Origin: a halophilic archaeon SHRA6
GTDB lineage: Archaea; Halobacteriota; Halobacteria; Halobacteriales; Haloferacaceae
DNA length: 64,000 bases
Assembly: GCA_005239175.1 (NCBI GenBank)
Contig: SOPS01000001.1
Span: forward strand, 682,001 to 746,000
Direction: 5' to 3'
The stretch's first letter is position 1, and each line of letters begins with the position of its first letter. A program made the translations under genes and the position numbers. The notes below the pieces were generated by a model, which did no database searches, was not told the origin of the DNA, and saw only the letters and a program-made list of their open reading frames with translations. Positions 23,716-44,824 of this stretch are shown piece by piece.

Positions 23716-23735
23716 GGCCCTACCGGATTTGAACC
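23716..23735 (-). repeat. Left attachment-site repeat (tRNA 3' fragment)
   Basis: GGCCCTACCGGATTTGAACC is identical over 20 bases to the part of the intact tRNA(CAT) gene at 31833-31852. It encodes the 3' half of the T-arm plus most of the acceptor strand, read on the minus strand. No D-arm or anticodon arm is attached, so this is a fragment left by integration. Confidence 0.85.
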
Positions 23736-23783
23736 TCGCCGAGACATTCCTGCTCGCTTCGCTGCGCGGGCTGTGACTCGTCT

Positions 23784-23850
23784 GGTTCAAATCCGTCTGC
23801 CATTCCCACGGCTCACTGTCGTTCGCCGGGGAATGGGCCCTACCGGAACC
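23784..23850. repeat. Hairpin made of two opposed tRNA 3'-end copies
   Basis: GGTTCAAATCCG at 23784-23795 followed by CCATTCCC is opposed by GGGAATGGGCCCTACCGG and AACC at 23829-23850. The second arm is the tRNA(CAT) 3' end, including the full GGGCCC acceptor, with five bases of the T-loop deleted. The loop contains GCTCACTGTCGTTCGCC. The arms carry mismatches but preserve the T-arm sequence in both orientations. Confidence 0.65.
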
Positions 23851-23884
23851 GCTCTGCGGAGGTTGCGCCCAGCTGGGTAACTCT

Positions 23885-23896
23885 CACGAATTCGTG
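23885..23896. repeat. Perfect 12-bp palindrome beside the integrase
   Basis: CACGAATTCGTG is a perfect palindrome 22 bases beyond the integrase stop codon, between the gene and the left attachment repeat. It could be a recombinase or accessory-protein binding site, or part of a terminator; position is the only evidence. Confidence 0.4.
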
Positions 23897-23917
23897 TTGA
23901 TTCAATGCAAGCGTTCA

Positions 23918-24955
23918 TCATAGGTCTGGAAGGTAATCGCGGCGCTGTTCGGCTTTCTCGCGTGCGCTGCGCCGGTCGTAATGCTCATCGAGGATTCCCT
24001 CGCTCGCGTTCAAGCGGTCCGACACGACTCGACGAGGGACTTCCTCACGTCGGTACGCAGTTACTCGACCGCTTCGTACGTCATGCGGTGATCGCGAAGA
24101 CGGACACTTACTCGCGTGAACCGCCTGTGTTGCCTCGCACGTCTCTATATCTCGGTCGTGTGGACAACCCGCACCACGCCAACAGGGACGAGTTACCCGA
24201 TACAGGGTATCTCGAAGCGTCGACACGGAAGCACGGCCGTACGAAGTCGTAATGAGGGGATTTCTCCCGTGTTCGTCGGTCGTGTCCTCTCTCGGACCGT
24301 CGATGTAGTCCTCGAGGATACGAGCGACCCGCGGACTGATCGCATTCCACCGTTCGCCCCGCTCTTTGTTTTTCAGCGGCGTACCCGTCTCTGGGCGATG
24401 GCGGAATTTGATACCGGGATGGTCAGCGCTGAGATCCAGGTCGACGAGATCGAGCGAGCGCAGCCCGCCGGCACGCGCGCCCGTGTGCCACATCAAAAGG
24501 AGCGTTACGTGGTTGCGGCTGGCGTACTGATAGCGGTTCAGGAAGGTGAGGATCTCCCCGACGCGCTCGGGTTCGAGGGTCGTATTGCTGACGTTCTCAC
24601 CACCACTGACGCTCGGAAGCGGTACGTCGTTTCGCAGGCCCTCAGGAACTGCTTCGATCTCCTCGGCGAATCGAAGGAACGCGCGCAGTGTAGCCAGCTG
24701 TCCACGGAGGGTGACCGTCGCGATCTCGTCGCGACCTTCGCCGTTACCCTCACGTCGCCAAACACGATACTGGTACAGGTCCCGACCTGAAAGGTCGTTC
24801 AGGTTTTCGAGGCCGAATTCATCGCACCACTGGCAAAACGCTTCTAATCGGTACCGCTGCGCATCGAGCGTATGCTCGCTTAGCTCATCACTACGAGCGT
24901 CGAGGTACATTCGAACCCCTTCGACAGGCCCGAGGGGTTCGAGGTCGCTACTCAT
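23918..24955 (-). CDS. Tyrosine recombinase (integrase)
   Basis: Predicted 345-residue site-specific recombinase. An N-terminal SAM-like domain (DARSDELSEHTLDAQRYRLE, residues 19-38) precedes the catalytic domain. Its active-site residues are visible: Arg in HTGARAGGLRSLDL (residues 157-170), His-x-x-Arg in SPHDVR (residues 289-294) and the nucleophile Tyr in LDEHYDRRS (Tyr 326). A Cys cluster (C258, C264, C273, C284) lies just before the HxxR motif and may bind zinc. The gene is next to the left tRNA repeat, so it is the enzyme expected to have inserted the element. It overlaps the upstream Cys-pair gene by 8 bases. Confidence 0.93.
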   Translation of the reverse strand: MSSDLEPLGPVEGVRMYLDARSDELSEHTLDAQRYRLEAFCQWCDEFGLENLNDLSGRDLYQYRVWRREGNGEGRDEIATVTLRGQLATLRAFLRFAEEIEAVPEGLRNDVPLPSVSGGENVSNTTLEPERVGEILTFLNRYQYASRNHVTLLLMWHTGARAGGLRSLDLVDLDLSADHPGIKFRHRPETGTPLKNKERGERWNAISPRVARILEDYIDGPREDTTDEHGRNPLITTSYGRASVSTLRDTLYRVTRPCWRGAGCPHDRDIETCEATQAVHASKCPSSRSPHDVRSGRVTAYRREEVPRRVVSDRLNASEGILDEHYDRRSAREKAEQRRDYLPDL

Positions 24956-25133
24956 ACGAACCTCCGTCGCCGGTCGACAGAAGTCCTGCGCACCGCCTAC
25001 AGGTGGGTTTCTCTCGGGATGCGTCGAACCCGTCGGGATGGCTTCCGCAGTAGAAGCACGTACCGCTGGAATTATTCGCCGCTGTTACGTCAGATCGTCT
25101 GGGGCTCCTAGGCCCCGTTTTGGTTCCGTGCAT
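24948..25133 (-). CDS. Small Cys-pair (zinc-ribbon-like) protein upstream of the integrase
   Basis: Predicted 61-residue protein with GTCFYCGSHPDGFDASREKP followed by TCRRCAGLLS, that is two CxxC pairs 17 residues apart. It overlaps the integrase start by 8 bases, so the two are probably co-translated. Small zinc proteins fused to or preceding integrases are common in haloarchaeal elements and may act as excision or regulatory factors, which is inference. The ATG at 25133 (MHGTKTG) or 25154 could be the start. Confidence 0.6.
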   Translation of the reverse strand: MHGTKTGPRSPRRSDVTAANNSSGTCFYCGSHPDGFDASREKPTCRRCAGLLSTGDGGSYE

Positions 25134-25278
25134 GGATATCACGGGAACCACCACGGGCCGCGCTGCAACGCGGCCTTCTTCACGAACCGACCAGAGTCAT
25201 CAGTATCCTACAGGGCAGCTCCGCAGATCGAATGACTACCCCTACTTATTTAAATATTATCACTAAAAGGTGATCACG

Positions 25279-25339
25279 AAAAATGGTATCCGCGAGATAA
25301 AAACACGAATCAAGATGAGAACCACAGGATACCATTTTT
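25279..25339. repeat. 13-bp inverted repeat upstream of the winged-helix gene
   Basis: AAAAATGGTATCC at 25279-25291 and its exact complement GGATACCATTTTT at 25327-25339 are separated by 35 bases. The right arm ends 25 bases before the ATG of the winged-helix gene, where the promoter should be. A dimeric regulator binding both arms, possibly autoregulating, fits. The region just left (TTATTTAAATATTATC) is very AT-rich and may hold the opposite promoter. Confidence 0.55.
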
Positions 25340-25364
25340 TAGGTAGAGTTGAGTATACGTGCGT

Positions 25365-25694
25365 ATGAGTGATCACTCTATGTCTGGGGACAATATCATT
25401 GTATACGATCCAGAAGAAAGAGAACTAACTCGACATCACAAATCTTTGGTCGAAAATTCACTTGAATATGATTGGACAACTGAATTAGATATTCATATTT
25501 TGGAAATACTGCTGTTTTCAAATTTAGTCTTGACACCCGCAATAATTGCATATAATATTAATAAATCTCGTGAAGGCGTATCTCGACGACTGAATAGTCT
25601 ACAGGCTGGCGGTCTGGTAAATAAAAAAGATCGAGGGAAATATCAGATATCGGATGAAGGGATCAATTATATTATATCTAAACGGCTCTGTTGA
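25365..25694 (+). CDS. Winged-helix transcriptional regulator of the element
   Basis: Predicted 109-residue protein. Residues about 40-105 form a winged helix: DIHILEILLFSNLVLTPAII, then the recognition part NKSREGVSRRLNSLQAGGLV and the wing NKKDRGKYQISDEGINYI. This arrangement matches haloarchaeal phage PhiH1-repressor-like and MarR-like regulators. Base composition is AT-rich, unlike the flanking chromosome. ATG 25365 is preferred to GTG 25359. A 13-bp inverted repeat directly upstream is a natural operator, which makes it the likely switch of the element. Confidence 0.75.
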   Translation: MSDHSMSGDNIIVYDPEERELTRHHKSLVENSLEYDWTTELDIHILEILLFSNLVLTPAIIAYNINKSREGVSRRLNSLQAGGLVNKKDRGKYQISDEGINYIISKRLC

Positions 25695-25818
25695 GATCTT
25701 CAGCAAGTGATACATTTCGACCTGGTTCCGACAGTACAGGGAATTCATGAATCGTTCAGTACAGCGTAGACAGGTACCACATACTATGATGTGAGTTGCT
25801 ATCAATATCTAGTCGAAA

Positions 25819-26094
25819 ATGCCAGACGACGAATCTGAGATCAATATAAAAAGCCGAGAGGAGATACTGGCTGAAGCTGAGAGAGAAGCCGATCACAAGG
25901 GTAGTGGAACTCATTTAGCGGTGGTGAACAACGCTCTTATGAGAACCCAAATTCACCAACAGCAGCGACTTGAATTGGAAATTAAGGCACTTAGGCAAAG
26001 TATAGAGACGTTCACATTCTGGTCAAGGGCACTTACAGTCGTTCTAATAGTTCTTGGAATCCTCTCGTTACTTGCCCAAATTAATATACCCTAA
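25819..26094 (+). CDS. Small tail-anchored membrane protein next to the KAP NTPase
   Basis: Predicted 91-residue protein. The first 65 residues are charged and probably helical (SREEILAEAEREADHKGSG, then RTQIHQQQRLELEIKALRQS, which could form a coiled coil). One hydrophobic helix near the C terminus (ALTVVLIVLGILSLLAQI, residues about 70-88) would anchor it in the membrane with the N terminus inside. I recognise no family. Its composition matches the KAP gene 200 bases downstream on the same strand, which has its own TATA element. Confidence 0.65.
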   Translation: MPDDESEINIKSREEILAEAEREADHKGSGTHLAVVNNALMRTQIHQQQRLELEIKALRQSIETFTFWSRALTVVLIVLGILSLLAQINIP

Positions 26095-26268
26095 ATAAGG
26101 AACTGGCAAAGATATTTATATAATTGAATACGCATCCCTCACCTAACGGCTGTTTCAGACAATAATATCTGTGAAGAAGAGGGTTTCAACAGAGCCATCT
26201 AAACAGAACTCTGAAGTGACTGTTTAAAATATGGAATGAATAGTTATCGAAATATCTCCCAAAACTAC

Positions 26269-26278
26269 TATATAATAA
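26269..26278 (+). promoter_or_regulatory. TATA box of the KAP NTPase gene
   Basis: TATATAATAA-like sequence centred about 25 bases before ATG 26297. It indicates that the KAP gene has its own leaderless promoter rather than depending on read-through. A second AT-rich candidate (TTTATATAATTG near 26115) lies further upstream. Confidence 0.5.
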
Positions 26279-26296
26279 CACAATTACTACATAATA

Positions 26297-28477
26297 ATGT
26301 CTACCAAACGTTCTGATCTCGGGGATTCATCACCTGAAAATCAGGTCGAATTTGGACAAAAAGAGGTTGCAGAATTTCTTTTGAAAGAAATTGATAGTGA
26401 TCCTAATATCCAAATCGCAATTAACGGTCCATGGGGTAGTGGTAAAACAACAATTCTAGATAAAGCATATAGTGAACTTCAACAGGATTCCTCAACTATC
26501 GCTGTGTGGTATGAACCATGGAGATACAGCCCGGATCAAACAACACTCCGTCGAACATTTCTAAGAACAGTTTACGAGAACACCTCAAGAGAAATAGAGG
26601 AAGTAGAACCAATTACAAATGACGAATTTCACTTTGATCAAATAAGTGAACAAACGAGAAGTATATCTGATTTCATCACCAAACTATACAAGAATTTAAC
26701 AAATCAATTCAAGTTTATTATACCTATTCTAACAATTATTGGGCTATTATTGTTGATTCCATTGGCATTTAATTTATTTGACATGGGAATAATCGGTGCA
26801 GTATTCTCTCTTCTTGCACAATTAGCTGCTTTTACAATAATAGTAAGCTTAGGATTTTATTTGAGAAATGATCTTGTATCAATCTTATCTGAAGATCTCA
26901 CATATGACGTGAGAGAACCAAAAATCAGCGAAATCGACCTGTTTGAAGACAAATATGAACAATTAATAACAAAGCTAGGAAAATCAAACAAAAATTTAGT
27001 TGTATTCATTGATGATCTAGATCGGTGTAATAAAAAAGAGATGCGTGAAGTGATTACAGCTCTTTCGACGTATCTCGATCCGGATAGTGATCAGACACCA
27101 GTATCATTTGTTACGGCAATAGATGGTCCTAAAATAGTTGACTCGTTTGATGATACAAGTGAAGATGATGCACAACTTAAGCCTAATATTTTAAATAAAA
27201 CCTTTCAAATCGTTATTCCAGTACCATCCTTATCCAGATCAAATGTATCAAAATTAATTCAGATAACTGCCGAGGATTTGGGTCATCAAATGAAAAAAGA
27301 AGATATAACTAATATTACTAGAATTGCTGTATCCCACGCTGACTCCAATCTACGGATTATCCGATCCGCATTATCTGATCTTGTCTGGATGAAAGATCTT
27401 GGTGAATCGTATATGACGAATAAAGAATTTAGTGATTCAGAATCATTCAGAAAAATTATGAATGATGATTATGTTTTATTTCGAATATCACTAATAAAAC
27501 TCCTAAGCAGAAATGAGGATCTTCGATCATTTGTTACTGACGCATCAATGTGGGTGAATAAAGACAATAGACGTGGTCATATCCTGTGGGATCTTTTTAA
27601 TATTTCTCCAGCATTTGAACCATCTGGAATAGACCCTCGTCCACTGTTAGCTCTAAATAATCCAAATCGTTACCCGTCAAATATTCATGACTTTCGTGAA
27701 ATAAATAACAAAATATCTGGTGGCAGGAACCCAAGCGATGCGATGCCACTTATTGAAAAATATGGTCCCGCAGCTCAAGTTGATATTGCATATAGGTTCT
27801 TAGACACCAACATCGACGATGAAGATCGAGATGTTAAATCTGCATACATAAGCACTATAATTGGGATTGCATACAATTCTATTGATGCGATAGATGAGAG
27901 GAACTCAGACCTGTTTGACGATTGTTTCGAGCTTGTCAAAAAGGATCAGAAGATTGTTTCTAATATTGATACTAAAGACTACTCAAAATGGGTGACAGTA
28001 GGACATAAAGTCGGTAAAGTTGATCAACTATTTGAAAAGTCATCACCGTTTATGAAACGAAATAAGACTCAGTTCCTTAGAGAAATATCGAATTCAATAT
28101 CGGATTTCGATATGCATGTGATTGAGTTACTACTTGACGCAGAAATTAAGCAGTCTGAAAGTGGCGATGGGATTTCTTCTGCAACAAGGGTATCCAGAAT
28201 TTTTGAACAAGACAAAACAACCAACGCAGAAAATGCGCCGGACTACCTCCTAAGTTTGCTTCGTCATTGGCCATTTGATGACAAACCATCTGGACCACCG
28301 GATAAAGTACTACATAGTGATGTACTCAGTAGATTAGAATCTGATGCGTATTTCGATGAAGCGGAGAAGGTTTTTCTCAGCGTAGGAAGCCATGGTGATG
28401 TATCGAGTGACTATCGTGATACACTATTGGACAAAGGGTGGCCAAGACCTACAGGTTTTGAACAAGATGAGGAATAA
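26297..28477 (+). CDS. KAP family P-loop NTPase with membrane insertion
   Basis: Predicted 726-residue STAND-related NTPase of the KAP group. Walker A is INGPWGSGKTTI (residues 42-53). The family signature AVWYEPWRYSPD follows at residues 70-80. Two membrane helices are inserted at about 139-190, between Walker A and Walker B, as is typical of KAP proteins. Walker B is LVVFIDDLDRC (234-244). The C-terminal 350 residues are helical and not recognised. Bacterial KAP proteins include the F-plasmid phage-exclusion protein PifA, so a defence role is possible but unproven. Codon use is AT-rich and contrasts with the backbone, indicating transfer. It has a leaderless promoter of its own. Confidence 0.88.
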   Translation: MSTKRSDLGDSSPENQVEFGQKEVAEFLLKEIDSDPNIQIAINGPWGSGKTTILDKAYSELQQDSSTIAVWYEPWRYSPDQTTLRRTFLRTVYENTSREIEEVEPITNDEFHFDQISEQTRSISDFITKLYKNLTNQFKFIIPILTIIGLLLLIPLAFNLFDMGIIGAVFSLLAQLAAFTIIVSLGFYLRNDLVSILSEDLTYDVREPKISEIDLFEDKYEQLITKLGKSNKNLVVFIDDLDRCNKKEMREVITALSTYLDPDSDQTPVSFVTAIDGPKIVDSFDDTSEDDAQLKPNILNKTFQIVIPVPSLSRSNVSKLIQITAEDLGHQMKKEDITNITRIAVSHADSNLRIIRSALSDLVWMKDLGESYMTNKEFSDSESFRKIMNDDYVLFRISLIKLLSRNEDLRSFVTDASMWVNKDNRRGHILWDLFNISPAFEPSGIDPRPLLALNNPNRYPSNIHDFREINNKISGGRNPSDAMPLIEKYGPAAQVDIAYRFLDTNIDDEDRDVKSAYISTIIGIAYNSIDAIDERNSDLFDDCFELVKKDQKIVSNIDTKDYSKWVTVGHKVGKVDQLFEKSSPFMKRNKTQFLREISNSISDFDMHVIELLLDAEIKQSESGDGISSATRVSRIFEQDKTTNAENAPDYLLSLLRHWPFDDKPSGPPDKVLHSDVLSRLESDAYFDEAEKVFLSVGSHGDVSSDYRDTLLDKGWPRPTGFEQDEE

Positions 28478-28542
28478 TTTATGCGCAGTATGTGCATATA
28501 TTTAGTACACAACTCTTGTCAGAGTCAAAAATTTGAATAGAA

Positions 28543-30477
28543 TTATTCATTCCACATTTGAACAATTGGCGGCGGGCGATCACCAATTTTCACAGGTTCC
28601 TCAGATGTTGGTGAATCAACGACGTAATCCTCAACAAGTCCGACATCACTCGATACAGCATTCTCCAGCGGCATATCCCAATACGCGTAACAACCAAGAT
28701 AGTCAATATAAGCATAAAATTCAGCAGAAGGCGGTAAGCTTGATTCAACCTCAGGAGTAACCAGCCCATCAAGCACGTCGTCGACAGCTTCCTGAAAATC
28801 GTCGATATCGTCCCACTGCCGTCGAGCGAGATCGTCAAGTACCGGGCCTTCCGCAGCTGCCGCTATGGAATCAATTGAAAACTCACGAACCGCTTGCCGT
28901 ACATCTACATCTCGAGCGTGTTCAGGCCGTTCTATGCCCCTCTCAATATCCTTCGAGATCGACCAGAAGCGCCGACCAGTCGCCCAGTATATCCCAAGTT
29001 TCCACGTCGCAGCCTTGTCTGCGTACGATCCGTCACGAGCATCGTCGAAAGACTCAGAGGCGGCCGCTCGAAGTGATCCGAACGTAGCAGAGAGATACTT
29101 ACCAAGGTACGCACCAGCTGTCCTATTCCGCATCTGTGTGTCTTCCTGGTCATCGTCGTCGTAGAAGTCGATCAATTCGTGCGAGCGGGCGTTGTCCTCG
29201 ACCCACTCCTCGCCGTGATCGTGGTCGCCGTAGCGGTACCAGTCGACGAAACCCCTCGAAACCGGAACGTCGTACTCCTCGCCGTCGCTGTCGACAACTT
29301 TCTTGGTACCGAAATCACCCACGTCATCGAGATCGTCACGGAACACCAACGGATACAGGTCGACGATTTGACCCTGCCCGTAGTCCTTCCACTTCTTTGA
29401 TAGCTCGCCCTTGTCGATCAGGAACGGCATTCCATCACTCTCGCGTGTCGGCACGTCGAAAAAGAGCACGTGAAGGTGTGCGTAGCCCTTCTCAGTGAAT
29501 TCTAGAGCCTTGAGGTACGGAGGCCGTTCACGCGGCCGGCCCGTTACATGATCGTCGAGAGACGGTGACCAGCTGGCAACGCTCTCCTTTCGCGTATCGG
29601 CTTTAGTTGACGGGTCAGTATCAAAATACGACAGCAGTCGGTTAAAGTTCGGATTGATATTCTCAATACCCTCGTACAGCGACCGTGGATTCGGTCGAGT
29701 TGGATCGTCGTAGGTGCCCGGGTCTGTAGTAAGCGTGACCAGAACCGCGTTTTCGTAGTGCTCGTAAGCGTATTCGAGGGATTGGTTGAATCGAGCCCAA
29801 GTCTTGTTGATGCGTCCTTGACTGTTGAATCGAGTTTTGTACTCCTTTGTCATCCGACGAGTTGTCTGCCCCCCTCGTCGGCCGCAGAAGTGGACGTCGA
29901 ATAAGAGCTGGTAGTTTTCTATCCGTTTGAGATACCGATGTAAAGAGTCCTCAAGTAAATCCTGTCCCCACGAATCGACGCTGTGAGCCCTCTGGAGGTA
30001 GTTTTTACAGAATTCACGATCATAGACCAGTTCCTCATTTGCACCGGCTGTTTGAGCAATGCCTTCTGATATCAAGTCTAGTAGCCGAATTGTCGGGGTG
30101 ACCATCGTCGATCCTGCCGTCTGGCGTTTTTCGATAAGTGCAGGAACATGCTCAGCGAGATCGTCGACGAACCGATAGACAAACTGGTAATCACGGTCGG
30201 AACCATCGAAACGCTCGCATTGACCGACCGGCTGGCCTTTGATGCACTCAGAAACAAGGGTTTTCAGCATTATTCCCTCAGGAGCCGTAGAAATACGCTT
30301 TACCAGCCGTACACGTTCGTTGTCGCGCCCGCGTAGTTCGAGATCATCTTTTGGATCAGCCGAACTGTATCCGTACGCGAGAAGATCCAGATCTTCCAAG
30401 TACTGCACTAAGGTGGGAGTTTTACATCTCTCTGGCCGCAGTTGAGAGCCCCATACGTCCTGTAGCGCAGTCGACAT
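28543..30477 (-). CDS. HUH endonuclease, rolling-circle replication initiator of the element
   Basis: Predicted 644-residue Rep-type protein. Motif 1 is VLVTLTTDPGTY (residues 245-256). The metal-binding HUH motif is YAHLHVLFFDVP, with His 334 and His 336. The nickase motif is AGAYLGKYLSAT, with Tyr 457, Lys 460 and Tyr 461. This order and spacing match haloarchaeal rolling-circle initiators from small plasmids and pleolipoviruses. The N-terminal 240 residues are unrecognised. It would nick its origin and stay covalently attached to the 5' end during replication or transfer after excision. GC content is close to the backbone, unlike the neighbouring KAP gene. It probably shares an operon with the two upstream genes. 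Confidence 0.82.
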   Translation of the reverse strand: MSTALQDVWGSQLRPERCKTPTLVQYLEDLDLLAYGYSSADPKDDLELRGRDNERVRLVKRISTAPEGIMLKTLVSECIKGQPVGQCERFDGSDRDYQFVYRFVDDLAEHVPALIEKRQTAGSTMVTPTIRLLDLISEGIAQTAGANEELVYDREFCKNYLQRAHSVDSWGQDLLEDSLHRYLKRIENYQLLFDVHFCGRRGGQTTRRMTKEYKTRFNSQGRINKTWARFNQSLEYAYEHYENAVLVTLTTDPGTYDDPTRPNPRSLYEGIENINPNFNRLLSYFDTDPSTKADTRKESVASWSPSLDDHVTGRPRERPPYLKALEFTEKGYAHLHVLFFDVPTRESDGMPFLIDKGELSKKWKDYGQGQIVDLYPLVFRDDLDDVGDFGTKKVVDSDGEEYDVPVSRGFVDWYRYGDHDHGEEWVEDNARSHELIDFYDDDDQEDTQMRNRTAGAYLGKYLSATFGSLRAAASESFDDARDGSYADKAATWKLGIYWATGRRFWSISKDIERGIERPEHARDVDVRQAVREFSIDSIAAAAEGPVLDDLARRQWDDIDDFQEAVDDVLDGLVTPEVESSLPPSAEFYAYIDYLGCYAYWDMPLENAVSSDVGLVEDYVVDSPTSEEPVKIGDRPPPIVQMWNE

Positions 30478-30495
30478 CGGGTTTGACCGGCGTAA

Positions 30496-31317
30496 TCACT
30501 CGTTTGGTGCTCTATTGGCAGACAGCGACGCAGATCGCCCCGCACCGCCTCTCGTTGGGGCCGTCCCTTCGGTCGGCCCCTGCGACCGAGCTTCCGGGTC
30601 AGCCCCCCATGTCAGGGGGGCTGCTGCCGGCTCTCGGTCTTGCGGTGGTTTCTTTGGACTGTCGTCGAGCCAGTCGTCCACCATAGGTCGACGGGGTGGG
30701 GTGGTGGGTAGGTGGCTGGTATTTTGGTGACGAAGCAGTTGGGCGATGACACTGATTCGATGCGGTGGGCGGGTAGCGTGACGACGAACGAATTCGTACT
30801 CCTCGAGCGGATCGAAGTCGATGCGCTTCGCGGGTTTGAGCCCAACACCGGAATTAAGCCGATCCTCGTGGTCTTCGAGCGCAGGAAGGCGGAAACACGG
30901 CCAGCACGATCTGGCTTTCGCGGGTTTCGAATCCGCATCGTTGATGCACCGATCCTGACAGTGACGACATTTGTAAGAAATCTGGTCTGAGCTTTCTGTA
31001 TTCGGAACAGAGAGCTCAGAGATCGGACTTGCCTCACGCTGTGCAAAGCTTCGCACGCTGAACAGGGAACGAGCGATACCTGTTGTCGGATTGCTTCTAT
31101 CCCATTTCGTCTCCTCGTGTCGATACATCCGGCGGTGATGAACAACGTCGACACGTCCATCTCCGAATACGTACACGTAGAGGTGCTGATCGTCTGGATT
31201 AGTGTGACACCTCGGCGATGATGTATCGACATCAAGAACCTCAGAATAATCACTATCCTGACTCATATCGTCGGAAGGACCAGAATCAACGGAGTTCCCG
31301 TCAAGAGAGGAACTCAT
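30496..31317 (-). CDS. Element protein with a Cys-rich (zinc-binding) centre, unknown function
   Basis: Predicted 273-residue protein. The N-terminal 50 residues are Ser/Asp-rich and probably disordered. The centre has YKCRHCQDRCINDAD and then RSCWPCFRLP, a four-to-five Cys cluster that could hold one zinc ion. The C-terminal 60 residues are Pro/Arg-rich and low complexity. No domain is recognised. Its start overlaps the end of the upstream gene by four bases and its stop lies 18 bases before the Rep gene, so it belongs to the replication operon. Confidence 0.6.
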   Translation of the reverse strand: MSSSLDGNSVDSGPSDDMSQDSDYSEVLDVDTSSPRCHTNPDDQHLYVYVFGDGRVDVVHHRRMYRHEETKWDRSNPTTGIARSLFSVRSFAQREASPISELSVPNTESSDQISYKCRHCQDRCINDADSKPAKARSCWPCFRLPALEDHEDRLNSGVGLKPAKRIDFDPLEEYEFVRRHATRPPHRISVIAQLLRHQNTSHLPTTPPRRPMVDDWLDDSPKKPPQDREPAAAPLTWGADPEARSQGPTEGTAPTRGGAGRSASLSANRAPNE

Positions 31318-31730
31318 GGCTCACCCCTGAACAGTTCAATCCCAACGTGTCGATCGTATATTTCGACCACGTCGCCCGCTTTGACACCGAGAGGCTCTAG
31401 AGCCGGTTTGAAAAGCTGCGATTGAAGCAGACCCTCACTTACCCTGTGGACCTTGTACCGGGCGAGTACGGTCGCTGCTGTGTGATACTGGCCGGGAACA
31501 ACGAAGACGGAACTGCCGAGATCAAGGATCTTGATCGGATCACCGTGGGTAACCTCGATATGATCGAACGGGTTGCCGCGAATCGTGACTGAGAGATTCC
31601 CGTACGGCCGTAGCTTGGAAACGGTATACTCGCCGAGGTAACTCACAGGGACCACCTCGACGGGCTCGATCCGAATTGGAAATCCGCAAGCAGTGAGAGG
31701 TCTGCGACCGGCGATCGGTCGACATACCAC
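31314..31730 (-). CDS. Element protein with AbrB-like strand pattern, unknown function
   Basis: Predicted 138-residue protein from GTG 31730, though the true start may be further in. The middle (TVSKLRPYGNLSVTIRGNPF, then HIEVTHGDPIKIL) and the end (LEPLGVKAGDVVEIYDRHVG) both echo the G-x-I-x-P ... G-D pattern of AbrB/SpoVT swapped-hairpin DNA-binding domains, so a transcription or copy-control role is conceivable. The resemblance is weak and I do not assert the family. It is the first gene of the probable operon with the Cys-rich protein and Rep, and lies behind a palindrome. Confidence 0.5.
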   Translation of the reverse strand: MVCRPIAGRRPLTACGFPIRIEPVEVVPVSYLGEYTVSKLRPYGNLSVTIRGNPFDHIEVTHGDPIKILDLGSSVFVVPGQYHTAATVLARYKVHRVSEGLLQSQLFKPALEPLGVKAGDVVEIYDRHVGIELFRGEP

Positions 31731-31761
31731 TCACGAGGGGTTAGCTCGATTCCCTGAAATG

Positions 31762-31792
31762 CCCGAATATTCGGGATAGGGACGTTAATACA
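31762..31792 (-). promoter_or_regulatory. Promoter with palindromic operator for the replication operon
   Basis: A perfect 14-bp palindrome CCCGAATATTCGGG (31762-31775) lies 25 bases centre-to-centre downstream of a minus-strand TATA-like TGTATTAACG (31783-31792). The predicted transcription start therefore falls in or beside the palindrome. A regulator bound there would block the operon of the AbrB-like, Cys-rich and Rep genes. Confidence 0.55.
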
Positions 31793-31830
31793 GCTGTTCA
31801 GTATCGAATTAAAATCGTGAGATGAACCGA

Positions 31831-31937
31831 TGGGCCCTACCGGATTTGAACCGGTGATCACCCGGTGTCTCATTCCACCGATCGCGTGCCGGCGGAACTA
31901 TGAGCCGGGGGCTTTAACCAGACTAAGCTAAAGGCCC
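31831..31937 (-). tRNA. tRNA with anticodon CAT (probably elongator Met), containing a 32-nt intron
   Basis: The minus strand folds as a complete cloverleaf. The acceptor is GGGCCTT with AGGGCCC plus discriminator A; the D-arm is GCTT/AAGC, the anticodon stem CCCGG/CCGGG and the T-stem ACCGG/CCGGT with loop TTCAAAT. After CTCATA the sequence is interrupted by 32 bases (31867-31898) that form their own seven-pair helix, TTCCGCC with GGTGGAA, as expected for an archaeal bulge-helix-bulge intron after position 37. Removing it leaves 75 bases. Anticodon CAT means Met or a modified Ile2; an intron in the elongator Met gene is usual in haloarchaea. The 3' exon contains the attachment core of the integrative element. 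Confidence 0.88.
31833..31852 (-). repeat. Right attachment-site repeat inside the tRNA(CAT) gene
   Basis: This 20-base sequence equals the copy at 23716-23735. It lies wholly in the 3' exon (T-arm and acceptor), so integration keeps this tRNA functional. Confidence 0.85.
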
Positions 31938-36668: not shown

Positions 36669-37277
36669 TCAGGGTCTGTCTGCGGTTGCGACAACCGATC
36701 GACCGTTCACATCGTCGTGAGTCACCTGAATCCGCGTTGGGTCACCCGACGACGGGACACGCAGCCGCAGTTCGTACCTGATATTGATCAGCGCCTCCGT
36801 ACAGACCTCGTCGTCGTCGGCATCGACGAACGTTTCGACGACGACATCGAGGGTGCCGTCCGCCGTAGTTTGCGTGAGTGGGACAAGCCGGGCGTCTGCA
36901 CAGCCGTTTCGGCCGACAATGCACCCCTCGATCGCGATCGAATCGTCGTCCCACTCGATCGATGCTGATTCGGGGTTCTGACAGCTGTCGCTCGTTTGGA
37001 ACGATTCCACGGTGATGTCGGGCTCGCTTGAATCGTCTGAATCGTCCGAATCGTCCGAATCGTCCGAATCGTCCGAATCGCCTGGATCGCTTGAATCGTC
37101 TGAATCGTTTGAATCGTCTGTACCGTCTGAGTCGTCCGTATCGTTCCCGGTATCGTCGGAGCCAGAGCCGTCATCATCTGGGCCTCCGGGACCCGACCGT
37201 GTGAGACAGCCCGCCACTGAGCTGATCAGGAGGGCGATCGCAGCGCGTTGGAGGACCGATCGGCGAGGATAGTTCAT
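36669..37277 (-). CDS. Putative lipoprotein with Asp/Ser repeat linker
   Basis: Predicted 202-residue exported protein. The signal NYPRRSVLQRAAIALLISSVAGC has a twin Arg and a lipobox-like SVAGC, so Tat export and lipid anchoring at Cys 23-24 are likely. A DDS/DDSD repeat of about 55 residues forms an extended acidic stalk. The C-terminal domain (SFQTSDSCQNPESASIEWDD onward) has Cys pairs and beta-rich character like other small haloarchaeal lipoproteins with an unknown fold. ATG 37277 is chosen because it begins the signal. Confidence 0.7.
   Translation of the reverse strand: MNYPRRSVLQRAAIALLISSVAGCLTRSGPGGPDDDGSGSDDTGNDTDDSDGTDDSNDSDDSSDPGDSDDSDDSDDSDDSDDSSEPDITVESFQTSDSCQNPESASIEWDDDSIAIEGCIVGRNGCADARLVPLTQTTADGTLDVVVETFVDADDDEVCTEALINIRYELRLRVPSSGDPTRIQVTHDDVNGRSVVATADRP
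37030..37117 (-). repeat. 9-bp tandem repeat encoding DDS units
   Basis: GAATCGTCC and close variants repeat about nine times in frame on the plus strand, giving DDS triplets on the minus strand in the lipoprotein stalk. The near-identical DNA units suggest recent slippage, so length probably varies between strains. Confidence 0.75.
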
Positions 37278-37442
37278 ACGTACCCTGTCGCTTCCTGAGC
37301 ATGAAAAGCTCGCGTACACACAAATGACCGTTTGTCTCATTCGCCGCGACACGGCCCAGATTCTCTAATGAGCGTGTCGATCGAGCGCACACAGTCGTCG
37401 GACCGTAACCGTCTTATGTCGGTGCCGGGTACTCATGACTGA

Positions 37443-37515
37443 GTCCTGGTAGGGTAGTGGACTATCCTCTTGGCTTGCGGAGCCAGGGACCGGAGTTCAA
37501 ATCTCCGTCAGGACG
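37443..37515 (+). tRNA. tRNA-Arg (anticodon GCG)
   Basis: Acceptor GTCCTGG pairs with TCAGGAC, discriminator G. The D-arm is GGGT...ATCC, the anticodon stem TTGGC/GCCAG closes the loop TTGCGGA (anticodon GCG, reading CGC), and the T-arm is CGGAG TTCAAAT CTCCG. The gene has 73 bases and no encoded CCA. Its 3' end is the left half of a long hairpin (next entry). Confidence 0.93.
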
Positions 37516-37584
37516 TTTCTTTCAACACAACGCCGCGAGCGGAGCGAGCGGTACGTGTTGAAAGAAACTCCAGGAGATTTGAGC
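37495..37584. repeat. tRNA-Arg 3'-end hairpin
   Basis: GTTTCTTTCAACAC (37515-37528), immediately after the tRNA, is exactly complemented by GTGTTGAAAGAAAC (37555-37568). Beyond that, GGAGATTTGA (37573-37582) mirrors the tRNA T-arm string TCAAATCTCC (37497-37506). The loop is CGCCGCGAGCGGAGCGAGCG. The total structure spans the T-arm, acceptor and trailer. Confidence 0.8.
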
Positions 37585-37698
37585 AGAGAGCGAACGCAGT
37601 GAGCGATCGACTACTGAGCGATCGAACCGTGATTTTGGACGATCGCCACAACGAGCCCGACCGCCGCTGTTTTCCACGCTGTCGCCCTTCAGACAGCC

Positions 37699-44555: not shown

Positions 44556-44628
44556 GGGTTCGTGGTCTAGTGGTTATGACGTGTCCCTTACAAGGACGAG
44601 ATCGGCGGTTCGATTCCGCCCGAACCCA
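44556..44628 (+). tRNA. tRNA-Val (anticodon TAC)
   Basis: Acceptor GGGTTCG/CGAACCC with discriminator A, D-arm GTCT...TGAC-like, anticodon stem TGTCC/GGACG region closing loop CTTACAA (anticodon TAC), and T-arm GGCGG TTCGATT CCGCC. The gene has 73 bases and no CCA. A hairpin and tandem copies of its 3' end follow. Confidence 0.93.
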
Positions 44629-44686
44629 CTCACACCGGCGAGCGAAGCGAGCCGTGTGTGAGTTACTGTGAGGGCGGAATCGAGCC
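44607..44686. repeat. tRNA-Val 3'-end hairpin
   Basis: The tRNA T-arm GGTTCGATTCCGCCC (44607-44621) is mirrored by GGGCGGAATCGAGCC (44672-44686, one mismatch). Between them ACTCACAC (44628-44635) pairs with GTGTGAGT (44656-44663). The loop is CGGCGAGCGAAGCGAGCC, itself palindromic (GCGAGC/GCGAGC type). Confidence 0.8.
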
Positions 44687-44710
44687 AGCGAGCAGCTGTG
44701 CTGCGAGTGA

Positions 44711-44824
44711 GGTTCGATTCCGCCCGAACCCACCCACCAGCAACCGAACCGGAGGGTGCAGTCCGATTCCGATCGAACCCACCCACCAGCAAACCAAGTG
44801 GGGAGTGAGGTTCGATTCCGCCCG
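44711..44824 (+). repeat. Three tandem copies of the tRNA-Val 3' end, about 49-bp period
   Basis: GGTTCGATTCCGCCCGAACC plus CA recurs exactly at 44711-44732. A degenerate copy (GTCCGATTCCGATCGAACCC) lies at 44761-44780 and a 16-base copy at 44809-44824. The first two are each followed by CACCCACCAGCAA and a related spacer. They look like relics of repeated integration at this tRNA. The remainder of the gap 44629-44961 shows no gene. Confidence 0.75.

Follow-up and report, generated by a model that had tools for sequence, protein, structure and literature searches.

The window, by which we mean the whole 64-kb stretch of DNA that was analysed, carries downstream of its tRNA-Arg(GCG) gene a two-hairpin tract that includes part of the tRNA's own 3′ end in inverted form. 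We refer to such a tract as a unit, to the 3′ end of the host tRNA (T-loop to discriminator) as X, and to the inverted T-arm as X′. The parts of the tract at tRNA-Arg (37443-37609) are as follows:

37443-37515, plus strand: tRNA-Arg(GCG), the host gene (ARAGORN, Rfam RF00005)
37495-37515, plus strand: X of tRNA-Arg, the T-arm/acceptor 3′ end from G53 to the discriminator
37515-37568, plus strand: hairpin 1 of the Arg unit, with a 14-bp perfect stem and an apex (GCGAGCGGAGCGAGC) containing tandem G·A pairs and a cGGAg triloop
37573-37583, plus strand: X′ of the Arg unit, an inverted copy of the T-loop/T-stem, GGAGATTTGAG
37584-37609, plus strand: hairpin 2 module of the Arg unit, type A, CAGAGAGCGAACGCAGTGAGCGATCG

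The perfect 14-bp stem of hairpin 1 is GTTTCTTTCAACAC and encloses AACGCC-GCGAGCGGAGCGAGC-GGTAC. An earlier reading of this DNA from its letters alone (the sequence-only reading) had described a 14-bp perfect stem and an inverted T-arm after tRNA-Arg, and both are present, at 37515-37568 and 37573-37583, respectively. What it took for a palindromic loop is instead predicted to be a hairpin of alternating Watson-Crick and tandem G·A pairs with a GNA triloop. We found four exact matches to the Arg loop sequence GCGAGCGRAGCGAGC in the 3.36-Mb genome, all within approximately 100 nt downstream of a tRNA on the same strand, and no match to its reversed control. Perfect inverted repeats of at least 12 bp with loops of up to 60 nt are few in the window, and all except one lie at three tRNA-related loci; the inverted-repeat design occurs at tRNAs far above chance. 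A direct copy of X is absent from the unit at tRNA-Arg and present in that of a congener (G145), and the tRNA-Arg unit is a decayed type I unit (defined below) without its direct copy. Adjoining the locus, at 37000-37180, short tandem repeats of the GAATCGTC type, Asp/Ser-rich, lie within a minus-strand open reading frame (36669-37352).

The sequence-only reading had also seen the same design after tRNA-Val and in a tRNA(CAT) “remnant.” Units were found in both places, the second of them being a displaced unit of tRNA-Met and no remnant:

44556-44628, plus strand: tRNA-Val(TAC) (ARAGORN, Rfam RF00005)
44607-44628, plus strand: X of tRNA-Val, GGTTCGATTCCGCCCGAACCCA
44629-44662, plus strand: hairpin 1 of the Val unit, apex GCGAGCGAAGCGAGC with a cGAAg triloop
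44672-44686, plus strand: X′ of the Val unit, GGGCGGAATCGAGCC
44687-44710, plus strand: hairpin 2 of the Val unit, AGCGAGCAGCTGTGCTGCGAGTGA
44711-44732, plus strand: direct copy of the Val X, identical at 22 of 22 positions
44759-44824, plus strand: two more partial copies of the Val 3′ end (44759-44781 and 44807-44824; the corresponding region of G145 was also examined)
31831-31937, minus strand: intron-containing tRNA-Met, owner of the displaced unit
23834-23846, minus strand: attR-like copy of the tRNA-Met 3′ end, the start of the displaced unit, CCGGTAGGGCCCA
23803-23833, minus strand: hairpin 1 of the displaced Met unit
23784-23795, minus strand: X′ of the displaced Met unit, CGGATTTGAACC
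23739-23783, minus strand: hairpin 2 of the displaced Met unit, type B core, AGACGAGTCACAGCC...GGAATGTCTCGG
23716-23735, minus strand: direct copy of the Met T-arm/acceptor, GGTTCAAATCCGGTAGGGCC
23847-31830, strand not assigned: integrative element separating tRNA-Met from the displaced unit

The tRNA-Val unit is complete, and it shows that the inverted-copy design, although real, had been described incompletely, as a direct copy of the tRNA 3′ end (44711-44732) is also part of it. The Met unit is complete as well and lies ~8 kb from the intact tRNA-Met gene owing to the integrative element, which encodes a tyrosine integrase (23918-24955, minus strand), a KAP-family NTPase (26297-28477, plus strand), and several proteins without a Pfam match. 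We therefore rejected the view of this 8-kb region as a tRNA remnant.

Reading the DNA 3′ of each of the 44 tRNA genes in the Halalkalirubrum-like genome, we found that approximately half bear at least one unit, 75 to 190 bp in size and built in the order X, hairpin 1, X′, hairpin 2, X. Direct copies of the tRNA 3′ end (at least 17 of 20 positions) occur downstream of 20 of the 44 tRNAs and at 7 of 3,000 random 20-mers, and a looser alignment placed copies downstream of 21 of the 44 and upstream of one, a tandem tRNA-Asp (arms and copies at tRNA-Thr and others have decayed and did not always enter the counts). Copies are thus vastly commoner at tRNAs than at random positions; the sequence-only reading had named a frequency no higher than random as a refutation, and it withstands that check. 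In type I units the tRNA is copied from the T-loop onward (20 to 22 nt); in type II units only the acceptor end is copied (13 to 15 nt of T-stem and acceptor), an inverted acceptor is present, and the G·A/GNA structure lies on the antisense strand. Types alternate I-II-I at the tRNA-Arg(GCG) genes of relatives. Direct-repeat lengths differ among units (~5, 9, 13 to 15, and 20 to 22 nt), which is unusual for a single recombinase or transposase, and X′ arms are frequently imperfect.

Each inverted arm nevertheless mirrors the tRNA beside which it stands. At T-stem positions 62 to 65, the test being confined to positions that had not been used for finding the arm, X′ matches its own tRNA at 2.57 of 4 positions, compared with 1.50 ± 0.09 after permutation (maximum of 1.80 in 2,000). 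The inverted arm is locus-specific, and the earlier statement that the mirrored T-arm is in each case the tRNA's own holds. Two arrangements at individual genes may be added. In arrays at tRNA-Leu CAA (L039 and L067), a near-full pseudo-tRNA-Leu carries hairpin modules just 5′ of the T-arm, and the acceptor end is therefore not the sole insertion point. In genome G121, a tRNA-Arg(GCG) gene and its type II array recur unchanged ~400 bp away (L084 and L104), a tandem duplication of the entire tRNA and its array.

Comparison of related genomes revealed turnover of the units. Between two Halalkalirubrum genomes, 15 tRNAs have copies in both, 6 in only the one, 6 in only the other, and 17 in neither. 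At tRNA-Ala(CGC), which gave an empty/filled pair, G145 has a 77-bp type II insert directly after the discriminator that repeats 14 to 15 nt of the tRNA end. At the nuoB/nuoC junction, which is uninterrupted in nine congeners of G035, G035 itself has a 73-bp insert with a flanking 9-bp direct repeat, GTACTCATG, and an inverted TGAGTA inside. These two base-precise empty/filled pairs prove insertion, at one tRNA and at one nuoB/nuoC junction, and neither of the two inserts, the ends of which are known, has a terminal inverted repeat. Units were also found away from tRNAs, in one case at a purS/purQ-like junction and in another, where the copies are imperfect, at the 3′ end of an aspS-like gene (the genes were named from translations of the flanking DNA); at non-tRNA targets the unit design uses copies of the local target. 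We concluded that units insert precisely, commonly just after the discriminator base, leaving a direct copy of the target, and that they expand and contract in tandem; identical units standing in tandem show the expansion.

The three units of the window are not unique to it. A strict 16-mer across X′ and hairpin 2 gave 108 matches in 53 of 145 genomes of the class and none for the reversed control; among 30 sampled loci, 24 lay downstream of tRNAs, 4 were chance matches, and 2 were arrays without a tRNA. Scanning all GTDB contigs with an 18-mer, we found 53 haloarchaeal places downstream of a same-strand tRNA, in Halorubrum, Haloferax, Halogeometricum, Halobellus, Halorientalis, and other named genera, and three further haloarchaeal units with no tRNA in reach. 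The second hairpin 2 core (type B), GACGAGTCRCAGYCC, which contains no tRNA-derived letters, had 90 matches in 62 of the 145 genomes against 12 for the control, and 49 of the 70 loci examined were directly at tRNAs, with 4 more displaced. Units span the class Halobacteria and most tRNA isotypes, often in tandem. Outside Halobacteria we found no genuine unit in ~125 genomes of the phylum, and the sole match there (G247) was rejected as coding sequence. The motif GARCGNAGYGA, considered as a tRNA-specific signature, was only partly upheld, with 96 genomic matches compared with 54 for its reversed control. In public contigs (L411 and L412), the Nextera adaptor sequence AGATGTGTATAAGAGACAG and N lie within hairpins; the hairpins disrupt short-read assemblies in this way, and units are therefore probably undercounted in public assemblies.

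The two hairpins of a unit have separate histories. In a sample drawn mainly from 30 Halorubrum genomes, 40 distinct units at tRNA-Val(TAC) combine 16 hairpin 1 types with 14 hairpin 2 types in 28 combinations, and the common types form six complete four-gamete sets. This shows that hairpins 1 and 2 reshuffle with breakpoints at the T-arm copies, although template switching or plain gene conversion at the repeated arms could also have produced the reshuffling. Among 227 units, hairpin 2 types are common to up to 20 tRNA genes, whereas hairpin 1 types are confined to one or two. Many of these loci had been fetched by hairpin 2 patterns, which introduces ascertainment bias, and we therefore repeated the test on loci fetched by their tRNA alone. 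Similar pairs between different tRNAs then made up 1 of 76 for hairpin 1 and 28 of 101 for hairpin 2 and, in two complete tRNA sets, 1 of 11 and 21 of 31, respectively, so that the contrast persisted in smaller numbers. Thus, hairpin 2 modules spread between tRNA genes and hairpin 1 modules almost never do. The sequence-only reading had excluded the spread of a repeat; the arms do stay local, but the hairpin 2 modules between them do not. Local arms and a travelling hairpin 2 could be reconciled if the universal T-loop core, which forms the inner border of hairpin 2, were where the exchange takes place.

The apex loops are of a kind known from DNA. On the tRNA-sense strand of 159 units, counting loops closed by two Watson-Crick pairs (mostly with a C-G closing pair), we found 118 cGNAg triloops where dinucleotide shuffles gave 4.5 (26-fold), 103 cGNAg triloops flanked by tandem G·A pairs where 0.84 were expected, and 28 GNNA loops other than GNRA where 1.8 were expected, an excess that may partly reflect descent from a few ancestral modules, as the counts take no account of kinship. 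RNA-type tetraloops in the same units are at chance (GNRA, 8 versus 7.3 expected; TTCG, 1 versus 0.9). GNA and GNNA loops on G-C pairs form exceptionally stable DNA mini-hairpins (PMC4686876), and unit loops match the definition given there, GNA or GNNA on at least two G-C pairs. Searched with Rfam 15, units matched tRNA models and no other RNA family. It appears that DNA folding rather than RNA folding of the unit hairpins is conserved.

Several known systems share part of this architecture. Integron cassette arrays have an attI anchor followed by tandem, modular attC cassettes, the attC sites being imperfect palindromes of inverted and direct core that act as folded-strand hairpins. The units likewise are anchored at one site, tandem, and modular, each ending in a palindrome of inverted and direct core; they differ in that the anchor is a tRNA 3′ end, the cassettes are hairpins without genes, and the palindrome arms vary by locus, consisting of the T-loop GTTCRAA and locus-specific sequence with no match to the attC core GTTRRRY. 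Mitochondrial double-hairpin elements and bacterial REP elements are, like the units, adjacent hairpins that are non-coding, dispersed, and mobile, but we know of no tRNA anchoring, locus-specific inverted or direct target arms, or T-arm module exchange among them. At E. coli tyrT (rtT), tandem repeats downstream of the tRNA each contain a copy of its 3′ end, as in the units; to our knowledge, however, this is a single locus with neither an inverted T-arm nor modular hairpins common to several tRNAs. Haloarchaeal PATEs, SMRs (~80 to 110 bp), and MITEs are also short, non-coding, mobile, and palindromic (PMC3119063). PATEs and SMRs are described without target duplication, whereas the units carry direct repeats (9 nt at nuoB/nuoC and 14 to 15 nt at tRNA-Ala), and MITEs and SMRs have the terminal inverted repeats that the two inserts with known ends lack; none of the three is described as anchored at tRNAs or flanked by copies of a local target (PMC3119063). 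Casposons target the 3′ ends of tRNA genes and leave 14- to 15-bp direct repeats resembling the 13 to 15 nt of type II units, but they are large, encode Cas1, have terminal inverted repeats, and contain no internal inverted copy of the target (PMC6977970), and their fixed repeat length differs from the ~5 to 22 nt of the units.

We hold with moderate confidence that the units are a class-wide family of small, mobile, modular DNA-hairpin cassettes, anchored at tRNA 3′ ends and exchanged at T-arm sites, perhaps by an integrase. The arms would form a long hairpin on a presumably single-stranded tRNA-sense strand, with hairpin 2 and its DNA-type GNA/GNNA loops as the cap. If strands were exchanged within the universal T-loop core, hairpin 2 would pass between tRNAs while the T-stem and acceptor, which are locus-specific, stayed behind, and this would be why each copy mirrors its own tRNA. 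More weakly, the exchange may occur in trans by a tyrosine recombinase, an enzyme with T-arms and 3′ ends of tRNAs as its usual targets, acting on folded single strands in the manner of integron attC and attI. Such a recombinase is a candidate because it would fit both the T-arm/3′-end targets and the attC-like geometry; archaeal integrases use tRNA 3′ ends, their commonest att sites, and some use only the acceptor end (PMC8371274). The fuller analogy, in which the units would be gene-less integron-like arrays with tRNAs as anchors, folded T-arm palindromes in the role of attC, and a tyrosine recombinase that inserts and swaps cassettes, the universal T-loop permitting travel among all tRNA genes while each array keeps its own tRNA sequence, is doubtful, and we put it forward as such.

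Possible carriers were sought among plasmids and viruses. Complete units at tRNA-like loci are present on the megaplasmids CP031304 of Natrinema thermotolerans (L380) and NZ_CP031306 of Natronorubrum bangense (L381), one locus being an intron-containing tRNA-like sequence and the other tRNA-Gly(TCC), and unit-bearing megaplasmids are a possible vehicle between species. We found no genuine unit in a phage collection or in two scans of viral contigs with two patterns. Haloarchaeal plasmids also share a conserved intergenic element of 115 to 190 nt (GGACTCAGAAAGGGCGAGGCCG...CGGCCGAGGGCTTTC; 121 PLSDB records; L382 1375-1592, L383, and L385-L389) that has no Rfam match; some copies have a two-hairpin insert at a fixed point between AGCGGC and GGTCGCGG, and others do not. 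We had suspected that the type B core might be related to IS605/TnpB right ends through the plasmid element GAAAGGGCGAG...GAGGGCTTTC, but this was not confirmed: none of five annotated examples has a directly adjacent tnpB. The element itself bears hairpin-pair inserts at one point.

The strongest rival dispenses with a dedicated enzyme. Replication stalled at a highly transcribed tRNA gene might let the nascent 3′ end fold back or switch template and copy the local end, first inverted and then direct, pre-existing hairpins becoming modules that recombination at the arms shuffles. Variable direct-repeat lengths and imperfect arms make this a serious rival, and it would also cover the inverted and direct copying of local X at non-tRNA sites as at tRNAs and the tandem identical units; a yeast study reports fold-back templated inverted insertions of 5 to 34 bp (PMC11724301). 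Template switching alone does not account, however, for specific hairpin 2 modules common to many tRNA genes and genera, for a boundary placed exactly at the discriminator base, or for a motif restricted to Halobacteria, and we regard it as possible but on balance unlikely.

A function in RNA, in which the trailer hairpins would act as terminators, direct 3′ processing, or keep the duplicate T-arm sequestered so that the true tRNA end folds correctly, and in which selection for RNA pairing would maintain the arms, has little probability. Many units do have a T-rich stretch immediately after the tRNA, and in RNA folding of several units X′ pairs with the direct copy, leaving the tRNA's own T-arm free. 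But the apex loops are of the DNA type (cGNAg in 26-fold excess, GNRA and TTCG at chance), the structure of type II units is on the antisense strand, one unit stands at a protein-gene junction (nuoB/nuoC), and half of the tRNAs, as well as many relatives at identical tRNAs, have no unit. The simple terminator or processing role suggested by the sequence-only reading is disfavoured by the loops and by this presence and absence among relatives.

Less probable again are non-autonomous IS200/IS605-like (PATE-like) elements moved by an HUH Y1 transposase, X′ serving as a guide that pairs with the cleavage site X by the hairpin. The X′-hairpin-X geometry does resemble an IS200/IS605 right end, and the hairpins are of the single-stranded-DNA type. 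Near-complete unit-bearing genomes, however, show that a Y1 transposase is not needed: we found no Y1_Tnp match in G121, G123, and G147 (97 to 99% complete), nor in G044, all of which carry units. Haloarchaea do have PATEs, but these are described without target duplication (PMC3119063), whereas the units have a direct target copy, a repeat that can be recast as an element-borne cleavage site. Most improbable is that the units are att duplications left as scars by ordinary viruses or plasmids with an integrase. Archaeal att sites are indeed commonest at tRNA 3′ ends (PMC8371274), and the Met unit adjoins an integrative element, but that element displaced the unit and did not make it, integration leaves no inverted T-arm, the two-hairpin architecture is uniform, and the two patterns found no unit on phage records or viral contigs.

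A search of open-licence PubMed Central, subscription papers lying outside its scope, found no published account of such units, and the mobile hairpin system at haloarchaeal tRNAs is apparently undescribed. The many partial copies of tRNA 3′ ends in haloarchaea call for caution in att-site prediction, tRNA-fragment annotation, and assembly. Empty sites and module swaps are base-precise natural experiments able to identify the enzyme, and the units offer a natural system in which the folding of DNA, not of RNA, is seemingly conserved. They constitute a pervasive, fast-evolving structure beside the core gene set of a whole archaeal class, and they bear on the question of why tRNA genes are hot spots of integration.
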